A program made the translations under genes and the position numbers. From Priestia megaterium (GTDB taxonomy: Bacteria; Bacillota; Bacilli; Bacillales; Bacillaceae_H), in assembly GCF_009497655.1 (NCBI RefSeq), contig NZ_CP023317.1:3501501-3565500 (forward strand): 64,000 nucleotides of DNA, in the 5' to 3' direction. The notes under the pieces were generated by a model. It ran no database searches. It was not told the origin of the DNA and saw only the letters and a list, made by a program, of their open reading frames with translations. Of the stretch, positions 21,820 through 31,677 are shown one piece after another. The first letter of the stretch is position 1; every line of letters begins with the position of its first letter.

Positions 21820-22683
21820 TTACTTTATTACTGAAATATTGCCATTGTGAGTACCTAGTTTAATGATATTCTTTCCATTTCCAATAACAGCGTCCCTATC
21901 ATATTTATTCAGAATATCGACTTTTCCATTGTCGACAGAAACGTTAAATTGAACGTTACTTGGTTGTTTTTCCGTTGTAATTTTAATCTTTCCATTGTTC
22001 GTTTTAAAGTCAATATCTCGATCAAGTTCTTCTGTTTCGAGAGCGATACTTCCGTTATGCGTTTCGCCTTTTAAACTACCTTGCACGTTACTCAGCGTTA
22101 TTTTTCCGTTATTTCCTTTTGCTTGAACTGTTTTGGCTGCAGCATTTTTTATGCTCGTAAGTCCATTGTGTACGCTGGTGGTCAGGTTTTGTGAATCAAT
22201 GTCCTCTAATTCTACACGTCCATTGTTTGCACGAACAGAAACATCTGCTGCACGTAATTTTTTAACAGACACATATCCGTTGTTACTGGAAATCCCCAAT
22301 GAATTATACTGTTTTTCAGGCAGATAAACGTTGATGGATAGCGGGTTTAATACACTAACAATATCAAAATTGACCCAGCTGCGCTGCTGTTCATTATAGG
22401 AGATAAAAAGGGTTGAATTTTTAACGTCAGTAGTGAAGTCTCTTTTTATATTAGGAGATGTTTCGCCTTTTAATGTTACTTTGATATTATCGCCTTTGAT
22501 AGGATACACGTGAACACGAGTATTATCCGTATCGATGTTTACCTTGGATACTTGATTGCTGTTAATAACTTTTTCTTTTGAAATAGGTTCAGGATCAATA
22601 GCACGATAAGTAAGGAGACTTCCTATAACCCCAATAAGGATGAGAATGCCTGCAAGAACGGAGAGTTTCTTTTTATTCAACAC
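21820..22683 (-). CDS. DUF4097-family membrane-anchored beta-repeat protein
   Basis: 287 residues: one N-terminal helix (LSVLAGILILIGVIGSLLTY), then a repetitive extracytoplasmic beta-helix typical of DUF4097. Repeats centre on xNNGxV/I phrases: ISSNNGYVSVKKL, RANNGRVELEDI, VHNGLTSIKNA, GNNGKITLSNV, THNGSIALETE, TNNGKIKI, VDNGKVDI, THNGNISVI. Its start overlaps the end of the DUF1700 gene. Such proteins are usual third members of PadR/DUF1700/DUF4097 envelope-stress operons (compare LiaX in enterococci). Confidence 0.9.
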   Translation of the reverse strand: MLNKKKLSVLAGILILIGVIGSLLTYRAIDPEPISKEKVINSNQVSKVNIDTDNTRVHVYPIKGDNIKVTLKGETSPNIKRDFTTDVKNSTLFISYNEQQRSWVNFDIVSVLNPLSINVYLPEKQYNSLGISSNNGYVSVKKLRAADVSVRANNGRVELEDIDSQNLTTSVHNGLTSIKNAAAKTVQAKGNNGKITLSNVQGSLKGETHNGSIALETEELDRDIDFKTNNGKIKITTEKQPSNVQFNVSVDNGKVDILNKYDRDAVIGNGKNIIKLGTHNGNISVIK

Positions 22684-23236
22684 GTTTTAAACCGCCTTTC
22701 ACCAATGATACATTGTATTTCAGATAACGTACAAAGCCTTTTATAGCTAGCTTCGTTACAACGAACATACCTAGCATAATAAAATATCCAATTCCGCAAA
22801 ATGCTAACGACATAAATAAATTAAAGAGAAAAAAGCCGCTCAAATGTACAATAGCTTCACCGAGAACTAGAATAGGAGATAGCAAGAAACATAGACCTAT
22901 GGCCCAAGCTGATAAAATAAAGCCAGCTAATGCAACGGCCGGACCAAGAACAATTACTACATTAAAAAAAGCTAAACCAATTACGGCCCAAGTGGCTCTC
23001 AAAATATTTTGAGTTGTTGCCTTAGCTGTTGCTTGCTCAACGTGATAATCTGCCAGCAATTCTTTGGCTATTTGATTCGGGGAGCCTAGCGACGCTACAA
23101 TTTCTTCTTCTGTTTTTCCTTCTTCTAAGCCAATGGAAAAATGTTCTTCATAATCTTGTAAAATATCTGCTCGTTCTTTTGAGGATAATGGTTTTAAGGA
23201 TTCATTTAATTGCTGTAAAAATTTACTCTTCGACAT
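22673..23236 (-). CDS. DUF1700-family membrane protein
   Basis: 187 residues. The N-terminal 70 residues are the HAAS/DUF1700 signature ([53 protein letters not shown]), followed by about four helices. It overlaps the padR gene by 14 bp and the DUF4097 gene by 11 bp, a tight operon. It is expected to work with PadR and DUF4097 in sensing or adjusting to envelope conditions. Confidence 0.9.
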
Positions 23237-23552
23237 TGTTCACACCTTCTTTGATTAATTGATTAACACCTCTTGAAAACTCATTCCATTCATCGATAAG
23301 TTCGTATAAATACTCCCTGCCTTTATCGGTAAGCTGATAATATTTCCTTGAAGGACCTTCTGTAGATTCCTTTAAATACGTTGTAAAATATTCTTCTTTT
23401 GTTAATCGGCGCAGAAGAGGATATACCGACCCTTCTGATATTTCAATTTGATCGGAGATTTTTTGAACTAATTCATATCCATAGCGGTCTTTCTTATCCA
23501 GTAATACAAGGACACAAAGCTCTAAAACTCCTTTTTTAAATTGCACGTTCAC
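23223..23552 (-). CDS. PadR-family transcriptional regulator
   Basis: 109 residues, winged helix of the PadR type: [48 protein letters not shown] (recognition helix), [17 protein letters not shown] (wing). First gene of its operon, so it is probably autoregulated through the repeated site at 23586-23667. Confidence 0.92.
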
Positions 23553-24035: not shown

Positions 24036-24527
24036 ACATTGCTCATCCTTAGTCTCAGAGTAATACAGTAATCATGACTCTCAATATTTTTTATACTGTA
24101 AAAATTAAATCCACAAATGGCTTTGAAAGTATATTGATTGAATTCCTGTAAGAATATCACTTTTTAAGATAAAATTTAACAGTTTTCGCCACAATCGATA
24201 GAAATGGATCAATTTCATTTGATTTTTTTGTAATAAGTTCAAGAAAAAAGTAACCGTTATTTTACATTTTCTAATAATAAAAACAGTCAATTTTATGACT
24301 GTTTTAAGTAGAATGCTATCAAAAATTTCATTTCCTAGGTGGTGTATCATCTTTATAAAAAATGCAGTTCTTATAGATTCGTTTTTTATTCCCCCTACTG
24401 AAAAAACGTCCATAAATCAATGCTGGCTTTTCATATCAGTACTTTTGATAATCCACACTTAATTATGAAGCCAGTCACTTGCATCCTTAGCCTATATGAT
24501 TATTTCCGTGTTGATATATCATGGTAT
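24036..24527. other. Gene-poor stretch
   Basis: A minus-strand open frame of about 100 codons covers 24105-24413 but has no ribosome site, odd composition and contains a terminator, so I do not call it. A hairpin AAAACAGTCA / TGACTGTTTT lies at 24280-24305. Confidence 0.4.
24280..24305. terminator. Hairpin terminator
   Basis: AAAACAGTCAattttaTGACTGTTTT, perfect 10-bp stem with A/T flanks usable in either direction. Confidence 0.55.
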
Positions 24528-25205
24528 TCATTCTTTACTTTGAGTAGATCTTCTTTGCTCAACCTTCTTCTCCTGATAGCGTTGATAGAACCAAATAGCA
24601 ATAGCTAGCCAGCAGCCGCTAGCAAAATAGCCTCCAATAACGTCGCTAGGATAATGCACGCCTAAGTAAATACGACTAATACCTATTGCTAGAATCATTG
24701 TAGTGGTAATAACGATTAAAAGTGTACGTCCCCAGCGAGTAGAAATATGACGCCAGAGCAAAAATGAAAGGACGCCGTAAACAGCAAAAGCACTCATAGC
24801 ATGCCCACTTGGAAAGCTATAACCATTGATTTCGATTAATCGATGGAAATCAGGACGTGCACGATGAAAAAGTAGTTTTAGCAGCTCATTGAGGATTGGA
24901 GAACCTACAATAATCGCGATAAATAAAATAAGCTCCGTTCGATGTTTTAATACCTTATAGAGAAAAAACAAACTAAAGAGAGAAATCACTGCAACAGATG
25001 GCGTAGAGCCAATAAAAGTAAAGCATTTCATAATAGTCGTTAGCCCAGGAGTTTCGAACCCTTGAATTAGCGATATAATAGACCGATCAAATGCGACAAT
25101 TTTTGATCCATTAATTAAAAGAGCCATCCCACTAAAACAAATAAGGGACAACAGGCTTAATATAAAAGCAAGTGTAAATTGAAACTTCAACTTCATACTA
25201 GACAC
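24528..25205 (-). CDS. PAP2-family membrane phosphatase
   Basis: 225 residues, six membrane helices. The three phosphatase motifs are intact: KLLFHRARPD (KxxxxxxRP), YSFPSGHAM (PSGH) and SRIYLGVHYPSDVIGG (SRxxxxxHxxxD). Enzymes of this type dephosphorylate undecaprenyl pyrophosphate or phosphatidylglycerophosphate on the outer membrane face. It lies just downstream of, and on the same strand as, the ArlS-like kinase and may be part of its regulon. Confidence 0.92.
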   Translation of the reverse strand: MSSMKLKFQFTLAFILSLLSLICFSGMALLINGSKIVAFDRSIISLIQGFETPGLTTIMKCFTFIGSTPSVAVISLFSLFFLYKVLKHRTELILFIAIIVGSPILNELLKLLFHRARPDFHRLIEINGYSFPSGHAMSAFAVYGVLSFLLWRHISTRWGRTLLIVITTTMILAIGISRIYLGVHYPSDVIGGYFASGCWLAIAIWFYQRYQEKKVEQRRSTQSKE

Positions 25206-25336
25206 CTCTACTTTCTGTGCTTTATCAAGCTACTTTTGATGAAATGTGATAAGGTCATTTTACTTTTAGATTTTGATGCTTCTTTGCTTTTGAAGTTAGG
25301 AGTATTAAAAATAAAGAGCTTGTTTTATATGCACAT

Positions 25337-26755
25337 TTATAGAGAGTTAGTAAACAGAGGCCATACAGCCGTTACATTTGTTCCTTCGCCCTCTTTACTC
25401 TCGATGTTAATCGTACCGTGGTACTTTTCAATCCATCGTTTGGCTATAGCCAGTCCTAAGCCAAGTCCTCCTTGTTTTCTGCTCCTTGCCTTATCCACTC
25501 GGTAAAATCTATTTAAAATATAAGGTATATCCTCTTCTGGAATTCCAATTCCTTTATCCATTATTTTAAGGGATACCTTTTCATTGATGAGAGAACAGTC
25601 TATAACTACCTCTTTCTCTTCCTTCTTAGAATATTTGACTGCATTATCTAACAAAATGATTAATATTTGTTCTAGATGGCGAGAAGAAATATTCACGTAC
25701 AGATTTTCATGTGAGTGTCTTATTTTAAACTCATAGTTGTTATACAGTACTTCAAAATTCCTTACAACATGTTGAACAGTGGCCAATACGTTAATAGGTT
25801 CAACATCTACAGGATTTATCAGACTATTTTCAGCTCGGGATAGCTCCAATAATTCTTGCACAAGATTCGTTAAACGCTCTACTTCTTTCAGACTGGATTT
25901 CAAGGATTTATCTAATACTGCTGCTTCATTTTTCCCCCAGCGATTTAACAATGTCAAATGTCCTTGGATAATGGCTAACGGAGTTCTTAATTCATGTGAA
26001 GCATCCTCTACAAACTGTTTTTGCTGTAAAAAAGAGTCTTCGAGGCTATCCATCAACTCATTAAATAAACTGCCTAATTGAGCAAATTCATCGTTTTTTT
26101 CATTAACTGGAACACGTTCTTCAAGGCCATTTGTTTTTATTTTTTTCATCGTCAATGTTAACGCTTGAACGTTAGATAGTATTTTCTTTGCTAGAATGGT
26201 TCCACCTAGAATACTAAAGATTAGTGAGCCTATCCCTGCAGCAAGCATTAATAAAAAAATCTTGTCCATAAAAGCATCAGACATCTCCATATTTCTAACA
26301 ATTTCAACCGTTCCAGTGAAGTTGTCGGTGACAATTGGAGAACGAAGAACGAGTAGACGTTCATCGTGGTTTCGAATCACTTTATACTCTTGGTGCTTCA
26401 CCGCCTTCGGTTGCTGCCAATTTGGTGAAACATTGTTTGAGGTACTGGTTATAATGTTCCCTTTCCTATCAAGAACACGAATCAACTGATTCTTTTCATT
26501 AATTTTCGATAAGTATCCTTCACTGCTTTCAATTTGTTTTAAGGATAAAGGTTCATCATCAGATTGAATAAAAGCGAGAACCTCGTTTAATTGATGAATA
26601 CCATTTTGCTTCTCATAATTTAAAATACCGTTATCAATCACAATGTATTGAAAGAGGTTATAAGAGAGAAAAAGAAAAAATAAAAACATGGAAGACCATA
26701 ACGTTATCTTCCATCTTATAGGCAAATCTTTTATACACTTTATCCACTTTCTCAT
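25337..26755 (-). CDS. Sensor histidine kinase (ArlS/YkoH-type)
   Basis: 472 residues. TM helices near 17-40 and 165-188 bracket an extracytoplasmic sensor; a HAMP linker follows (to about 240); the HisKA box FVEDASHELRTPLAIIQGHL contains the phospho-accepting His254; the HATPase domain shows LLDNAVKYS (N box), MDKGIGIPEEDIP (G1) and KQGGLGLGLAIAKRW (G2). The gene begins directly after the stop of the response regulator gene, so the two are translated together. The closest look-alikes are S. aureus ArlS and B. subtilis YkoH. Confidence 0.93.
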   Translation of the reverse strand: MRKWIKCIKDLPIRWKITLWSSMFLFFLFLSYNLFQYIVIDNGILNYEKQNGIHQLNEVLAFIQSDDEPLSLKQIESSEGYLSKINEKNQLIRVLDRKGNIITSTSNNVSPNWQQPKAVKHQEYKVIRNHDERLLVLRSPIVTDNFTGTVEIVRNMEMSDAFMDKIFLLMLAAGIGSLIFSILGGTILAKKILSNVQALTLTMKKIKTNGLEERVPVNEKNDEFAQLGSLFNELMDSLEDSFLQQKQFVEDASHELRTPLAIIQGHLTLLNRWGKNEAAVLDKSLKSSLKEVERLTNLVQELLELSRAENSLINPVDVEPINVLATVQHVVRNFEVLYNNYEFKIRHSHENLYVNISSRHLEQILIILLDNAVKYSKKEEKEVVIDCSLINEKVSLKIMDKGIGIPEEDIPYILNRFYRVDKARSRKQGGLGLGLAIAKRWIEKYHGTINIESKEGEGTNVTAVWPLFTNSL

Positions 26756-27439
26756 TTAAACATCACGCATCACGTATCCAACCCCTCTGATGGTTTGAAT
26801 ATATAACTCTTTGTCCTGCGCACTTAATTTATTTCTTAAATATCTAACATATACATCGACAACATTCGTTTCAACAACTGAATCGTACCCCCACACTTGC
26901 TCTAAAAGTATGTCTCTCGTTAATACTTTGTTAATGTTACGCATAAAAATGGCTAGGAGTTCAAATTCTTTATTCGTGAGTTCAATTAGTTTTTTTTCTT
27001 TTATCACTGTTCTTGATTCCAAATCAAGTTCAATATCTTTAAATGTTAATAGTAGCTTCTGATCCAGCATCTTGTTGTTTTCTTGACGTCTAAAAATGAC
27101 TCGCATTCTTGCAAATAATTCTTCAATTGCAAATGGTTTGGACAAATAATCGTCAGCTCCATTATCAAGCCCCATTACCCTATCCATGACACTATCCTTA
27201 GCTGTGAGCATAATAACAGGAGTATCCTTAGTTGTTCTTAGTCTTCTGCATACCTCAATTCCATTTAATCCAGGCATCATTAAATCCAATAATATAATAT
27301 CGTACTTCTGCTTGGTTGCTTTATCTAAACCAGTACGACCATCGTAAGCTACGTCAACTAAATATCCTTCATATTTTAGTTCTAATTCTAAAAATTCTAC
27401 TAATCCTTCTTCATCCTCTACAATTAGTACCTTTTGCAT
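26756..27439 (-). CDS. OmpR-family response regulator (ArlR/YkoG-type)
   Basis: 227 residues. Receiver domain with acidic pair VEDEEG and phospho-acceptor Asp52 in LLDLMMPG, Thr in MLTAKD and Lys in YLSKPFAIEEL. C-terminal winged helix ends with VVETNVVDVYVRYLRNKL and TIRGVGYVMRD, very similar to ArlR. First gene of the pair with the kinase; preceded by AAAGGAGAG. Targets likely include the downstream PAP2 gene and envelope functions, by inference. Confidence 0.94.
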   Translation of the reverse strand: MQKVLIVEDEEGLVEFLELELKYEGYLVDVAYDGRTGLDKATKQKYDIILLDLMMPGLNGIEVCRRLRTTKDTPVIMLTAKDSVMDRVMGLDNGADDYLSKPFAIEELFARMRVIFRRQENNKMLDQKLLLTFKDIELDLESRTVIKEKKLIELTNKEFELLAIFMRNINKVLTRDILLEQVWGYDSVVETNVVDVYVRYLRNKLSAQDKELYIQTIRGVGYVMRDV

Positions 27440-27631
27440 ATAAAGTACTCTCCTTTGTCTAAAAATTAAAAACGTAAAAACTGCTTCTACAAATGAATAT
27501 GAGTACTAGTACTATATCCCTCAATTTTGAAAGATAATAAGAAGAAATATGAAATAAGTTTTCTATGACTTTCTTCTTTATAGGCTTTTCTTCAATTTAT
27601 CAAATAAAAATTAGATTTGAATAAAAAAGAG

Positions 27632-27663
27632 ATTAAGAATAAATGAATTTATTTCTTAATCTT
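27632..27663. terminator. Bidirectional hairpin between the two response regulator genes
   Basis: Long AT-rich inverted repeat (AGATTAAGAATAAAT / ATTTATTTCTTAATCT) just past the stop of the orphan regulator. Confidence 0.55.
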
Positions 27664-27700
27664 CTTTAATGAATCATATAAAGTTGCTTTCCTTGTTTCT

Positions 27701-28396
27701 TTAACTTTCTTTAATGGTGTATCCTATACCTCGAACAGTCTCAATGAGTGAGGGACTAAATCCTTCTTCAATTTTCTTTCTCAAATAACTTATATAAACA
27801 TCAAGTATATTTGTATCTCCTTCGTATTCATATCCCCATACATTTAGTAAGATTCCTTCACGAGTAACCGTCTTATTTTTATGGATGACTAAGTAAATTA
27901 ATAAATCATACTCTTTAGGGGTTAAGCTGATTTTTTGCCCAGCTCTAGTTACTTCTCTTGATTCAGTATTTATAACCATATCTTCAATTAATAATAACGA
28001 GTCTTTTTCTACCTTATTCCTAATAACAAGGTGCTTATAACGTAGTAAAGAACGTATCCGAGCCAGCAATTCTTCAGTTTTAAATGGCTTAGTTATATAA
28101 TCGTTTGCGCCATGATCTAACCCCAGTATTTTGTCTAGAGTTGAGTTGCGAGCTGTCAAAAGAATAATAGGCACGTAATTTTCTCTCTTTCTTACTTTAC
28201 GCAAGACCTCTATACCACTCATTTCCGGTAGCATAATGTCAAGTAAAATTAAATCAAACATATTTGATAAGGCCATTTCGAGACCATCTCTTCCATTGTT
28301 TTTAATTTTCACTTGGTAACCTTCATGTTCAAGTTCCATTTTTAATATATTGCCTATTTCTACTTCATCTTCCACAATTAAAATACTTTCTTTCAT
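27701..28396 (-). CDS. Orphan OmpR-family response regulator
   Basis: 231 residues with complete receiver (Asp53 in LLDIMLPE, LLTARN, DYITKPFKTEEL) and winged-helix DNA-binding domain (EGDTNILDVYISYLRKKI, ETVRGIGYTIKE). No histidine kinase gene adjoins it: the ArlS-like kinase follows its own regulator 0.26 kb downstream. The sequence is paralogous to that regulator, so cross-talk with the ArlS-like kinase is possible. Upstream on the same strand is an MreC paralogue. Confidence 0.92.
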   Translation of the reverse strand: MKESILIVEDEVEIGNILKMELEHEGYQVKIKNNGRDGLEMALSNMFDLILLDIMLPEMSGIEVLRKVRKRENYVPIILLTARNSTLDKILGLDHGANDYITKPFKTEELLARIRSLLRYKHLVIRNKVEKDSLLLIEDMVINTESREVTRAGQKISLTPKEYDLLIYLVIHKNKTVTREGILLNVWGYEYEGDTNILDVYISYLRKKIEEGFSPSLIETVRGIGYTIKES

Positions 28397-28577
28397 CTAA
28401 CTAACCCCTCTTTTCAATCTCTATATTTTTGCTTTGCATATCGATCGCTCTTTCCAATAATAAAGAGAAGTGTATAGCTATCACAAACCAACATCTCAGT
28501 GGACAATAAGAAGTTTTAAGTGCTGAACATAAAAACATAAGATAAAAGACTTCTATTAGAATGTGATATTAAATTCC

Positions 28578-29369
28578 CTACCCATTGTTCTTTGCTTTAA
28601 TAACAATTACTTCACTAATATCATTAAAGTTGGATGAGGGTTTTACAACGGCCAATTGGGTTAATCCATATTCATCAGGCTTTACTTTGATGACTTTTCC
28701 TAAGGCTAACTTCCTTTGAAAGATTGAACTGATAGGAGAGGTTTGAACTTTATCTCCTACATTAACCTCAGCCTCACTAGGGATTTTTCTAATAATTAAA
28801 TTACCTTTTTTATCATCGTAGCCTTCTAATGTTCCATTCACGCTTTTCCTATCCTTTAACATTACCGCCATACGATTTGTCCTAAGGTTTGAGCTAATTA
28901 GTTCTACGATAGAGGTTGACGAAAAAACTTTGGATACCTTCCCAACGACTCCATTTGTACCTAGCACATTCATATCTATTTTTAACCCCTGCTTCTTTCC
29001 TTTATCAATTGTTAATTCATTGTTCCAGTTGTTCGTTGAGCGGCCAATTACGGTAGCTGTTACAGGATTATAGGTTTTCACCTGATCTTCTGTTTTTAAA
29101 ATTTTTTTTAAGACTTTGTTTTCATATTCCAACTTATAAGCATTTGCTTCCTCCTGATTTTCAGTGGCTAGCTTATTCTTTAAGATAGAGTTTTCTTTGT
29201 AAGTGGAAAATAATTGACTCACTTGTTGAGGTTCAGTCCAAGAAAGATTGTCTAAAGAAAGTAAGCTATCTTTGTACAAGGTTCCAACAAAAATAAGTCC
29301 TCCTACAGTAAGAATCCCTCCTATCAAAATATATGTATGTCTTTTCTTCTTTCTTTGAAAACGTATCAC
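28578..29369 (-). CDS. MreC paralogue
   Basis: 263 residues. One N-terminal helix (YILIGGILTVGGLIFVGTLY), a coiled-coil stretch (about 60-95), then the paired beta-barrel MreC core: VTATVIGRSTNNWNNELTID, KGKKQGLKIDMNVLGTNGVV, GKVSKVFSSTSIVELIS, NVGDKVQTSPISSIF. MreC links MreB to the wall-synthesis machinery outside the membrane. mreB and mreD are absent here, so this is a second, stand-alone copy. It lacks the long C-terminal tail of some MreC proteins. Neighbouring signal-transduction genes suggest conditional expression. Confidence 0.85.
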   Translation of the reverse strand: MIRFQRKKKRHTYILIGGILTVGGLIFVGTLYKDSLLSLDNLSWTEPQQVSQLFSTYKENSILKNKLATENQEEANAYKLEYENKVLKKILKTEDQVKTYNPVTATVIGRSTNNWNNELTIDKGKKQGLKIDMNVLGTNGVVGKVSKVFSSTSIVELISSNLRTNRMAVMLKDRKSVNGTLEGYDDKKGNLIIRKIPSEAEVNVGDKVQTSPISSIFQRKLALGKVIKVKPDEYGLTQLAVVKPSSNFNDISEVIVIKAKNNG

Positions 29370-29866
29370 AATGGCACCTTCCTACCAATAGTCATGCTAT
29401 TTATAATCTTACTAGCTGTTTCTTAAAAATTTCTTAAGTATCATCATCTTTGACCTCTTAACAACTGTTCAACGTTCTCCTTCTTTTAATGAATTGTACT
29501 TATTTTCTAGTTTCAAAAGCTGAAGGCATAACGTTATGTTTAAAAAACTTGGCTCACATAATTTAAATTTAATACTGTGTAATGAAATTTAAATGAAATT
29601 AAAATGAGAATTCGATAAAAAATAAATATTTTATTTTTATAAAAACATCATGGTGCAACAGAGTTGATAAAACATTAATAAAAAGTTTTTTATAAAAATC
29701 TCATTAAATTCTTATTTATTTTTCATTTTGATTTTAGAAAAAGACTGTACAGTTTGAATTGCAGCGATGAAGCTTTTAAAAAATTTCTTTAAGAAAAACG
29801 TTAGGCAAGTGTGCCGTTTATTTAAGAGAATAAACACTTAGCACAGGAAGGAGAGAAAAATTAAAA
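29370..29866. other. Divergent regulatory region
   Basis: 497 bp of AT-rich DNA between mreC-like (minus) and the four-repeat membrane protein (plus). Contains repeated ATTTAAAT/AAATTTAA tracts near 29560-29600; several TTAAG/TTAAA elements could be OmpR-type sites, but I cannot define one. Confidence 0.4.
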
Positions 29867-30631
29867 ATGCAAGCATCTTCGCCAATGAATAAAATTGCAC
29901 AAATTACCCTTGTTTTTTGGATTATGAAGATTTCTGCTACGACACTGGGTGAAACCGCAGGTGACTTATTAGCACAAACATTAGGAGTTGGATATGCAGT
30001 TAGTACGCTGATCTTTTTTAGCATATTTTTAATTACACTTGTAGCTCAACTAAGCTCTAAGAGATATATTCCGGCCCTTTATTGGACTGTTATTCTGTCA
30101 ACTAGCGTAGCTGGCACAACTATGTCTGATTTTATGGATCGTACACTGGCATTAGGTTACGCAAAAGGCTCGATGATATTAATCACTATATTGTTGTCGA
30201 TATTTGCATACTGGTATTTTAGCGAGCGTTCATTAAATATCAACTATATTAGAAACCGCAAGGCTGAAATACTTTATTGGATTGCCATCCTTTTCTCAAA
30301 CACATTAGGTACAGCTTTAGGAGATTTTTTGTCTGATACGTCTGGCCTTGGATATATAGGTGGAGCTATTTTAATTGGCAGCTTACTAGCATTCATTGTT
30401 ATATGTACCTTCTATACAAAGATTTCTCGTGTATTTTTATTTTGGGTAGCATTCGTTTTGACTCGCCCTTTCGGAGCAACATTTGGAGATCTTTTGACAA
30501 AGCCACATGAAAAAGGTGGTTTAGACTTAGGTACGGCAGGCTCTTCTCTAGTCCTAGCCTCCATTCTTATTGCCTTTATGATTCATACGACATTTAAACA
30601 AAATAACGTAAGCTCAGAACAAGCGCTGTAG
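29867..30631 (+). CDS. Membrane protein with four internal repeats (COG4705-like)
   Basis: 254 residues, eight predicted helices arranged as four helix pairs. Each pair has a T-x-GD-x-L-type motif: TTLGETAGDLLAQTLGVGYA, GTTMSDFMDRTLALGYAKGS, GTALGDFLSDTSGLGYIGGA and GATFGDLLTKPHEKGGLDLG. Acidic residues placed in membrane repeats suggest transport or proton/metal sensing. The protein matches what is known as COG4705, an uncharacterised membrane protein. Ribosome site GGAAGGAGAG. Divergent from the MreC paralogue. Confidence 0.8.
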   Translation: MQASSPMNKIAQITLVFWIMKISATTLGETAGDLLAQTLGVGYAVSTLIFFSIFLITLVAQLSSKRYIPALYWTVILSTSVAGTTMSDFMDRTLALGYAKGSMILITILLSIFAYWYFSERSLNINYIRNRKAEILYWIAILFSNTLGTALGDFLSDTSGLGYIGGAILIGSLLAFIVICTFYTKISRVFLFWVAFVLTRPFGATFGDLLTKPHEKGGLDLGTAGSSLVLASILIAFMIHTTFKQNNVSSEQAL

Positions 30632-30744
30632 ATTTCCTTTTTTATTTAATACATTACAAAACCCATAAAAAGAAAAAATCTAACGAAGTGACTAATTGCA
30701 TGAACCACCTCTTTTTCACACATACTCGTAAGGAGGTGGTGTTT

Positions 30745-31226
30745 ATGGTTAATCAGTTAGAAGTTCTTACCCAGCGTGTTAATGATAAACAATACGATTA
30801 CTGGCTTCATCATGATTTATTTAGTGCTCAATGGTGGCTAATTATCATTTTAAGTGCGCTTTTCTATTCGTTTTTTATCTCCTCATTGACCGACAACGAA
30901 TAATATTTATTCTCTTAGTATTTTTCATTAGCTTTGTTTTAGTTGGTACTGTGGATGAACTCGGGAAGTTCTTTGGCGTATGGAGCTACCCTCATCAATT
31001 ATTGGTCTTTACTCATCGTTTTAATTCCGTTGATTTTGCAGTTATCCCGGTTATACTTACATTAGTTTACCAATTCTTTAGCAAATGGAAGTTTTATTGG
31101 ATTGCTTCTCTTATTGCTTCAGCTTTTATCGCTTTTATTGGAGTGCCTATATTTACTTTTTTCCATATTCTATGGAGCATATTAATTGCAGACACAAAAA
31201 AAGCTCACCTTAAAAGGTCAGCCTAA
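30745..31226 (+). pseudogene. CBO0543-family membrane protein gene, frameshifted
   Basis: ATG 30745 follows AAGGAGGTGGTG. The first frame encodes MVNQLEVLTQRVNDKQYDYW...WWLIIILSALF and would stop at 30903. The next frame continues with FVFYLLIDRQRIIFILLVFF, VDELGKFFGVWSYPHQLL and several more helices to 31226. Together they make one CBO0543-type protein of about 160 residues. The shift lies at about 30850-30870, by the run CTTTTC. It may be a real null mutation, a sequencing error or slippage. Confidence 0.7.
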
Positions 31227-31677
31227 ATAGGGGAGTTCTATAGAAAATGTTATATTGCATTACTGATATTTATACTAGCATCTAATAGTGAAAATTGGTG
31301 AAATGTTCGTCTCACTTATCTTTTTAAAAATTTCTTCTTTGAAAAATGAAGTCTACGTTTTAAGCTCTCACTATAAAAGCGTGAACTCGTGACAGGCTAC
31401 GCTTTTATACATCTATATTCCATTAAGATCTATGAAAGTTAACCGGTCTCTAATCAGCGCTTACTCGTTCAAGCCTGCTATTTTTAGGTACGTCTCTTTT
31501 ATCTTCAATCGCTCCCCGTATTAGATATGCAGCTATGCAAATTTTTCAGCGTTAGTTATTCATGAATCTTCCATCCATTTAAAGTCTTAGCCGTATCGGC
31601 GGTAAAATGATCAATGATGTCACTTTTAAGAGATCGCTAAAGCTCAATTAAAGGAAGCTAAAAGAACTGTAAAATCT
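31227..31677. other. Gene-poor stretch
   Basis: No intact gene. A hairpin AAAAGCGT / ACGCTTTT (31376-31407) may terminate the CBO0543-like transcript. Confidence 0.4.

Follow-up and report, generated by a model that had tools for sequence, protein, structure and literature searches.

Why does a Priestia megaterium chromosome hold a second mreC gene in the company of signalling and lipid-phosphatase genes? MreC is normally the product of a chromosomal shape gene beside mreB and mreD. The copy in question, here called mreC2, stands without either of them in an island of the 64,000-nucleotide (nt) stretch analysed (the window), which lies on the 5.03-Mb contig of a 5.24-Mb host genome of three contigs. 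The sequence-only reading of the window had seen in these genes a cell-wall stress module able to swap or add an elongasome scaffold on demand, and had not recognised the grouping as described. The set was found to be an insertion whose genes recur on three Priestia plasmids (L020, L021 and L022), where a direct-repeat promoter box heads the operon. As to function, we prefer an accessory envelope-stress cassette, acquired from the Priestia plasmid pool and combining support of undecaprenyl-phosphate recycling with a dedicated elongasome scaffold, and we give this reading an even chance.

The island and its plasmid counterparts

The island has the following features, in window coordinates.

24345..31555, no strand: inserted island; limits approximate, from empty sites in relatives
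24528..25205, minus: PAP2a lipid phosphatase (PF01569, 83 bits, cut-off 27.2); motifs intact by eye; 93% identity on L021 and L022
25337..26755, minus: ArlS-type histidine kinase (ArlS_N, HAMP, HisKA, HATPase_c); 94-97% identity on the three plasmids
26756..27439, minus: ArlR-type response regulator (Response_reg and Trans_reg_C); 94-97% identity on L021 and L022, partial frame on L020
27585..27715, minus: deletion scar with what is left of the plasmid resolvase (3' end) and of the DNA that follows it; on the right it shares the final bases of RR1
27701..28396, minus: response regulator RR1, OmpR/PhoB family, no adjacent kinase (Response_reg and Trans_reg_C); 84-86% identity on the three plasmids
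28397..28512, minus: scar with a remnant of the 3' end of plasmid PAP2b (blastn and local alignment)
28578..29369, minus: mreC2, stand-alone MreC paralogue (PF04085, 131.6 bits); 71-73% identity on the three plasmids
29582..29608, minus: regulator-type box of mreC2, three 11-bp direct repeats with TATTAA 7 nt further on; sole exact match in the genome
29700..29726, plus: box copy in mirror orientation, towards DUF347, with one mismatch
29867..30631, plus: DUF347/COG4705 membrane protein (four PF03988 repeats, 213.9 bits)
30746..31226, plus: CBO0543-family gene (NF041644, 28.3 bits, below the cut-off of 35); looks frameshifted, split near 30900 by eye

From 29369 leftward the minus strand reads MreC2, RR1, ArlR, ArlS and PAP2a, with DUF347 divergent from 29867; the DUF347 frame and those of the five remaining signalling and envelope genes are open. 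The open-reading-frame list and domain profiles above their cut-offs confirmed the named genes in place and strand: the COG4705-like protein is divergent from mreC2, the ArlS/ArlR pair (ArlS_N, PF18719, 79 bits against a cut-off of 27) neighbours the PAP2 phosphatase, and mreC2 is stand-alone as proposed, with no mreB or mreD beside it.

The most complete version was found on plasmid L021, in the order DUF347, mreC2, PAP2b, RR1, resolvase, uptA, ArlR, ArlS and PAP2a. L020 follows this order, its DUF347 and ArlR being broken; L022 has no DUF347 at the operon head and shows a DUF347 match (66% to that of L021) directly behind PAP2a. The DedA protein of L021 is UptA by the NCBIfam equivalog NF052604 (279.7 bits, cut-off 250), and UptA of the other two plasmids is 95.6% identical to it. 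PAP2b, which is without an entry in the plasmid gene tables (L020 9803-10534, L021 9850-10524, L022 9841-10518), scores 31.3 bits as PAP2 (cut-off 27.2), and the catalytic motifs kept by PAP2a are missing from it by eye. Since this score is above the cut-off and the ratio of nonsynonymous to synonymous changes (dN/dS) among the plasmids is 0.25-0.39, PAP2b is perhaps not a dead gene but one for a pseudo-enzyme. Constraint on the resolvase is not clear (dN/dS 0.39-1.31 on few changes). A CBO0543 gene also follows PAP2a on L020, and at that place L022 shows a 40-bp match to it.

Recurrence on three Priestia plasmids indicates that the arrangement is not due to chance. An MreC2 query at E <= 1e-50 matched six of 397 order genomes, namely the host and five others at 41-45% identity, and at 1e-20 it matched five of 72,556 plasmid records, the three Priestia plasmids (71-73% over 99% of the length) and two of Listeria (35%); scans of genome contigs and viral contigs gave no relative. 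Among ten genus genomes MreC2 occurs in the host, and each of the other nine gave a single match, host-type MreC, at 38-41%. ArlS at E <= 1e-100 was returned from the plasmid collection by the three mreC2-bearing plasmids only (94-97%); at E <= 1e-70 none of the other nine genus genomes gave a match, and four of six other family genomes gave one at 37-41%. On Priestia plasmids carrying other PAP2 genes the module was not seen. Conservation of the neighbourhood in relatives, on which the sequence-only reading had made its proposal depend, was found, but it is rare (three Priestia plasmids, none of nine other genus genomes).

MreC2 covers the whole MreC profile (PF04085, cut-off 28, positions 1-147 of 147; TIGR00219, 120 bits against 92.75). 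Its residues 50-259 align with MreC of structure 2j5u, a Listeria protein, and its N-terminus has a hydrophobic stretch that resembles a membrane anchor by eye. The other MreC of the host, identical in five of the ten genus genomes, host included, sits between frames read as MreB and MreD, followed by MinC and MinD frames (read without a profile search). In a quick maximum-likelihood tree of 48 rows, with several long rows, no bootstrap and arbitrary rooting, the four MreC2 sequences form one clade, with a Shimodaira-Hasegawa-like approximate likelihood ratio test (SH-aLRT) value of 100 and a branch of 2.04 changes per site, apart from 44 other MreC rows. A recent duplication of host mreC was rejected in view of this separate clade and of the 31-45% identity of other MreC proteins among the matches listed. 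The N-terminal part of MreC2 differs, as nearly all host-type MreC matches start at residue 48 or later. MreC2 has in common with MreC of the canonical mreB-mreC-mreD set the barrel domain and, by eye, the anchor-like N-terminal stretch; it differs in having no mreB or mreD beside it, in its separate clade, in its repeat-box promoter and in being island-borne. All five genes compared have a dN/dS far below 1 between the window and plasmid copies (mreC2 0.26-0.27, RR1 0.11-0.14, ArlS 0.09-0.16), which argues that the MreC2 protein is constrained. No account of MreC in such a cassette, nor of a matching second MreC copy, was found among the papers listed in the literature searches, in which subscription journals were thinly covered.

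How did the set reach the chromosome? Flanks were compared among the ten genus genomes, and three loci were aligned. In relatives G001 and G008 the equivalents of window positions 24344 and 31556 are only 11 bp apart, so that the island genes are a 7.2-kb insertion. In G006 position 24344 adjoins 31900, and the remaining genus genomes gave no comparable flank pair. Loss of an ancestral chromosomal locus in the relatives was rejected, two of them having a clean junction. No direct or inverted repeat of at least 9 bp is common to 24301-24460 and 31441-31620. Most likely the island was acquired horizontally by the Priestia chromosome from the Priestia plasmid pool. A PadR/HAAS-domain/DUF4097 (LiaG-like) operon at 21820-23552 adjoins the insertion site; it is present in island-free relatives, its DNA being common to G001, G008 and G006. 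At 31627/31628 G008 has about 1.4 kb absent from the window, where a deletion or insertion rearranged the island-adjacent site too.

The window copy is reduced and mosaic. Its DNA identity to the plasmids by blastn is 92-96% from 27482 to about 24430 and 80-84% over mreC2 and RR1. Synonymous divergence is 0.08-0.24 for ArlS, 0.19-0.26 for PAP2a and 0.23-0.37 for ArlR, and is higher for mreC2 (0.57-0.61) and RR1 (0.63-0.69). The mreC2-RR1 gap keeps the end of PAP2b, blastn segments with RR1 starting at 28428-28512 inside the plasmid PAP2b end, and the RR1-ArlR gap keeps the resolvase end (84-91%, blastn) together with a weaker similarity to the beginning of uptA (local alignment). Since gain on the plasmids alone would leave these retained gene ends unexplained, we read the window lineage as one that probably lost genes and partially exchanged one half.

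The direct-repeat box and the regulators

What could bring these genes under common control? The box has the pattern YTCAT N6 YTCAT N6 YTCAT, three direct repeats with an 11-bp period, and is exact in all four copies. It heads the operon on the three plasmids and precedes mreC2 in the window; on L022, with the operon-head DUF347 gone, it still stands before mreC2. The box is followed after 7 nt by TATTAA, except on L020, where CATTAG takes its place. The host genome holds the exact pattern a single time, before mreC2, and, with up to one mismatch, 19 matches (reversed control, 3), three of them in the mreC2-DUF347 intergenic region (two overlapping). Because 16 matches lie elsewhere, against 3 for the control, the pattern alone is not specific at one mismatch; one outside match was inspected and had no recognisable island relative nearby. 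The copy facing DUF347 forms part of an inverted repeat of 42 nt (76% complementary); the surrounding stretch is AT-rich and holds 24 such pairs in all.

OmpR/PhoB-type regulators use direct repeats at such spacing beside a -10 element, and the layout suggests that one of this type, most simply RR1, binds the box. A putative ArlR motif with a TTCTCAT core also resembles it; a literature search for this motif with ArlR gave no paper.

RR1 keeps the usual receiver residues, as judged by eye in the alignment. It had been described as an orphan regulator lacking its own kinase, which stands in that no kinase directly adjoins it. The description falls short in that ArlS is the second gene downstream and that the closest paralogue of RR1 in the host genome (64% identical) has a kinase of its own and stands next to a PAP2-family gene and a glycosyltransferase. 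The first receiver helix of RR1 is by eye nearer to that of this paralogue than to that of ArlR, so the chromosomal kinase may serve RR1. With ArlRS of staphylococci the island pair has in common the ArlS_N sensor family, HAMP and an OmpR-type partner, a likeness at family level.

Related cassettes and the DUF347 family

Is the grouping new? In part it is not: DUF347, a phosphatase and a two-component system are published together as mmf (PMC4914505, PMC12029693), and MreC and its box are what is new inside an otherwise recognisable cassette. The papers cited here were available in part, and statements on them refer to those parts. The mmf cassette of Tn6048, in Cupriavidus metallidurans and on IncP plasmids (PMC4914505, PMC12029693, PMC2864759), has DUF347, a PAP2-type phosphatase, an OmpR-type regulator and a histidine kinase on mobile DNA, as in the island. 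It consists of mmfA, mmfB (undecaprenyl pyrophosphate phosphatase), mmfC1, mmfD, mmfC2 (DUF347), mmfR and mmfS (PMC4914505). The response regulator and kinase, mmfR and mmfS, are matched in the island at family level by ArlR/ArlS and RR1. To the DUF347 pair mmfC1 and mmfC2 correspond one mmfC2-like protein in the window island, an mmfC1-like one on L021 and another mmfC1-like one on host contig C2, and for mmfB the island has the PAP2 family, with no undecaprenyl model at its cut-off. No mmfA/PepSY, mmfD or Tn6048 transposition gene was seen among the scanned island proteins or the annotations and scans of the plasmid modules, neither of which was queried with mmfA or mmfD sequences. Compared with mmf, the Priestia module adds the MreC paralogue, two regulators and the ArlS-type sensor domain, and the plasmids also add UptA and a second PAP2.

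Lead and zinc upregulate mmf (PMC12029693), and the role preferred by its authors is metal capture (Fe, V; PMC4914505). The same paper reports that plasmid pHB44 raised the minimal inhibitory concentration (MIC) of bacitracin for its host from 40 to 300 µg/ml, tentatively credited to mmfB, that pMBUI8, with mmfA and mmfB only, raised it from 40 to 200, and that pBS64 had no bacitracin effect, its host being already resistant (PMC4914505). In Frankia, UppP + DUF347 operons are lead-induced, and they couple DUF347 with a phosphatase of the undecaprenyl-phosphate cycle, as the island may do; the available part describes no MreC or UptA, the phyla are others, and the mechanism, metal export with precipitation, is a proposal there too (PMC4531530). 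Lead is bound by phosphate that PbrB releases (PMC8195591).

The window DUF347 is nearer to mmfC2 than to mmfC1, being 46% identical to the mmfC2-like and 36% to the mmfC1-like protein of C. metallidurans, and 64% to one of Hymenobacter; the L021 DUF347 is 59% identical to the C. metallidurans mmfC1-like protein. The C. metallidurans stretch (L068), an unannotated record, was taken as a copy of mmf because gene order and lengths agree. The second host DUF347, on contig C2 (G000:C2:74314-75000; L090 6249-7457), has a long C-terminal extension. A 14-kb stretch of contig C2 gave matches to 101 plasmid records, every one of Priestia, with 100% over 7.8 kb for the best. At E <= 1e-15 DUF347 was found in four of 398 phylum-sample genomes, host included, and in none of 14 control genomes.

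Its genomic context was followed in 11 hand-picked loci. L068 has PAP2, DUF347, DUF347, regulator and kinase; G399 C5 has UppP/BacA, DUF347, regulator and kinase in one run; the others include PAP2-PAP2-DUF347 in Hymenobacter, DUF347-PAP2 in Acinetobacter, DedA-DUF347 in Rhodococcus and DUF347-regulator-kinase in Anabaena. In G550 a DedA/VTT-domain protein flanked by two DUF347 genes (L093 2548-3756) gives a weak C-terminal match to PAP2, which at 17.2 bits falls short of the cut-off. Twelve further plasmid loci were taken from 60 of 195 records, one per genus not yet seen, in list order to Bradyrhizobium, and are not a random sample: Rhodoferax and Janthinobacterium were skipped (identity and score equal to the Pseudomonas row), and Arthrobacter was picked ahead of its turn, with Burkholderia, Comamonadaceae and Roseibium passed over. 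Gene tables of the plasmids are incomplete, and several proteins named only 'ATP-binding protein' or 'HAMP domain-containing protein' that follow a regulator were read as kinases. Nine of the twelve have a two-component and/or PAP2/undecaprenyl-diphosphatase/DedA gene within 4 kb, a count with no background rate: Enterobacter, Klebsiella, Streptomyces, Mesorhizobium, Pseudomonas, Delftia, Ideonella, Thioclava and Bradyrhizobium (kinase pieces only). A lipid phosphatase is near DUF347 in four (Streptomyces, Pseudomonas, Delftia, Thioclava), two loci (Pseudomonas, Delftia) look like mmf itself, and MreC is annotated in none of the twelve. The Streptomyces plasmid (L131 1-4816) carries a regulator, PAP2, PAP2, DedA, a glycosyltransferase and DUF347, the nearest parallel of the Priestia plasmid set, with no annotated MreC.

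Function of the gene set

What, then, might the set do? UptA and the second PAP2 of the plasmids lend further weight to the proposed cell-wall stress module. In the envelope-stress cassette that we prefer, stress at the outer membrane face, caused by metal ions and/or antibiotics trapping undecaprenyl lipids, by analogy with mmf, would be sensed by ArlS and perhaps also by the chromosomal kinase of RR1's paralogue. A regulator, most simply RR1, would bind the 11-bp repeats beside the promoters and turn on mreC2 and DUF347. PAP2a, joined on the plasmids by UptA, would sustain undecaprenyl phosphate recycling, and MreC2 would keep the elongation machinery going as an additional scaffold anchored in the membrane. 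PBP2-MreC is treated in PMC5626683.

Several observations weigh against such a cassette. MreC2 is rare in the genus, and 16 one-mismatch box matches lie outside the island. Allowing up to one mismatch, no further box turned up in the window or in the stretches taken from the three plasmids, hence none before ArlR, uptA or PAP2a, so ArlRS and PAP2a may be separately regulated; the DNA examined around the chromosomal RR1 paralogue and around the contig C2 DUF347 gave none either. The window DUF347 is 39% identical to that of L021, is not its orthologue and differs in orientation. UptA and PAP2b are missing from the window copy, so lipid recycling there would depend on PAP2a alone, for which the best NCBIfam undecaprenyl/PG-phosphatase models give 40-45 bits against cut-offs of 229-261. 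No two-component or lipid-phosphatase neighbour was found in four of the 11 hand-picked loci (Paenibacillus L066, G399 C6, G760 and host C2; G399 C6 and G760 were judged by a small query set only, and at L066 a 500-aa response regulator of another type about 3.3 kb away was left out of the count), and neither these nor a DedA neighbour in three of the twelve plasmid loci (Rhizobium, Chroococcidiopsis, Arthrobacter).

The cassette might instead serve mainly lead and zinc export-precipitation or tolerance, with DUF347 moving metal, PAP2 freeing phosphate or restoring the carrier, and MreC2 repairing the metal-damaged wall. The lead-induced Frankia operons, with the export and precipitation proposed for them (PMC4531530), point that way, as do DUF347 loci near metal or tellurite genes, but DUF347 transport is itself only a proposal in that paper, MreC is left unexplained and the domain scan reported no metal-binding sensor domain in ArlS; we consider this account unlikely. 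The scars of lost genes, the apparently frameshifted CBO0543 gene, the rarity in the genus and the broken ArlR and DUF347 of L020 would all suit an eroding hitchhiker, a chromosomal plasmid remnant that is losing genes and is functionless at present. The open frames of DUF347 and the five signalling and envelope genes, the low dN/dS of the five genes compared and the kept box make that quite improbable. MreC2 could also be a competitor that displaces host MreC and so slows or reshapes elongation under stress, as its long separate branch and differing N-terminal part might suggest; against it, the whole barrel domain is kept and residues 50-259 align with 2j5u MreC, and we rate this role as no less improbable than the hitchhiker.

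Returning to the envelope-stress cassette, a bolder form of it is put forward tentatively, as somewhat doubtful. Priestia plasmids would carry a stress-inducible alternative elongasome, in which a dedicated MreC and an undecaprenyl-phosphate recycling set (UptA, an active PAP2 and a pseudo-enzyme PAP2) share a direct-repeat promoter, so that carrier-lipid supply and scaffold would be replaced together under attack on the lipid cycle, and the trait would move between plasmid and chromosome.

If true, a mobile and apparently inducible MreC that travels with lipid-carrier recycling genes would suggest that the elongation machinery is partly replaceable as an accessory trait. DUF347, in Pfam a repeat of unknown function, is placed in a recurrent context across several phyla, with a two-component system and undecaprenyl-phosphate enzymes, and its role becomes testable in a Gram-positive species.

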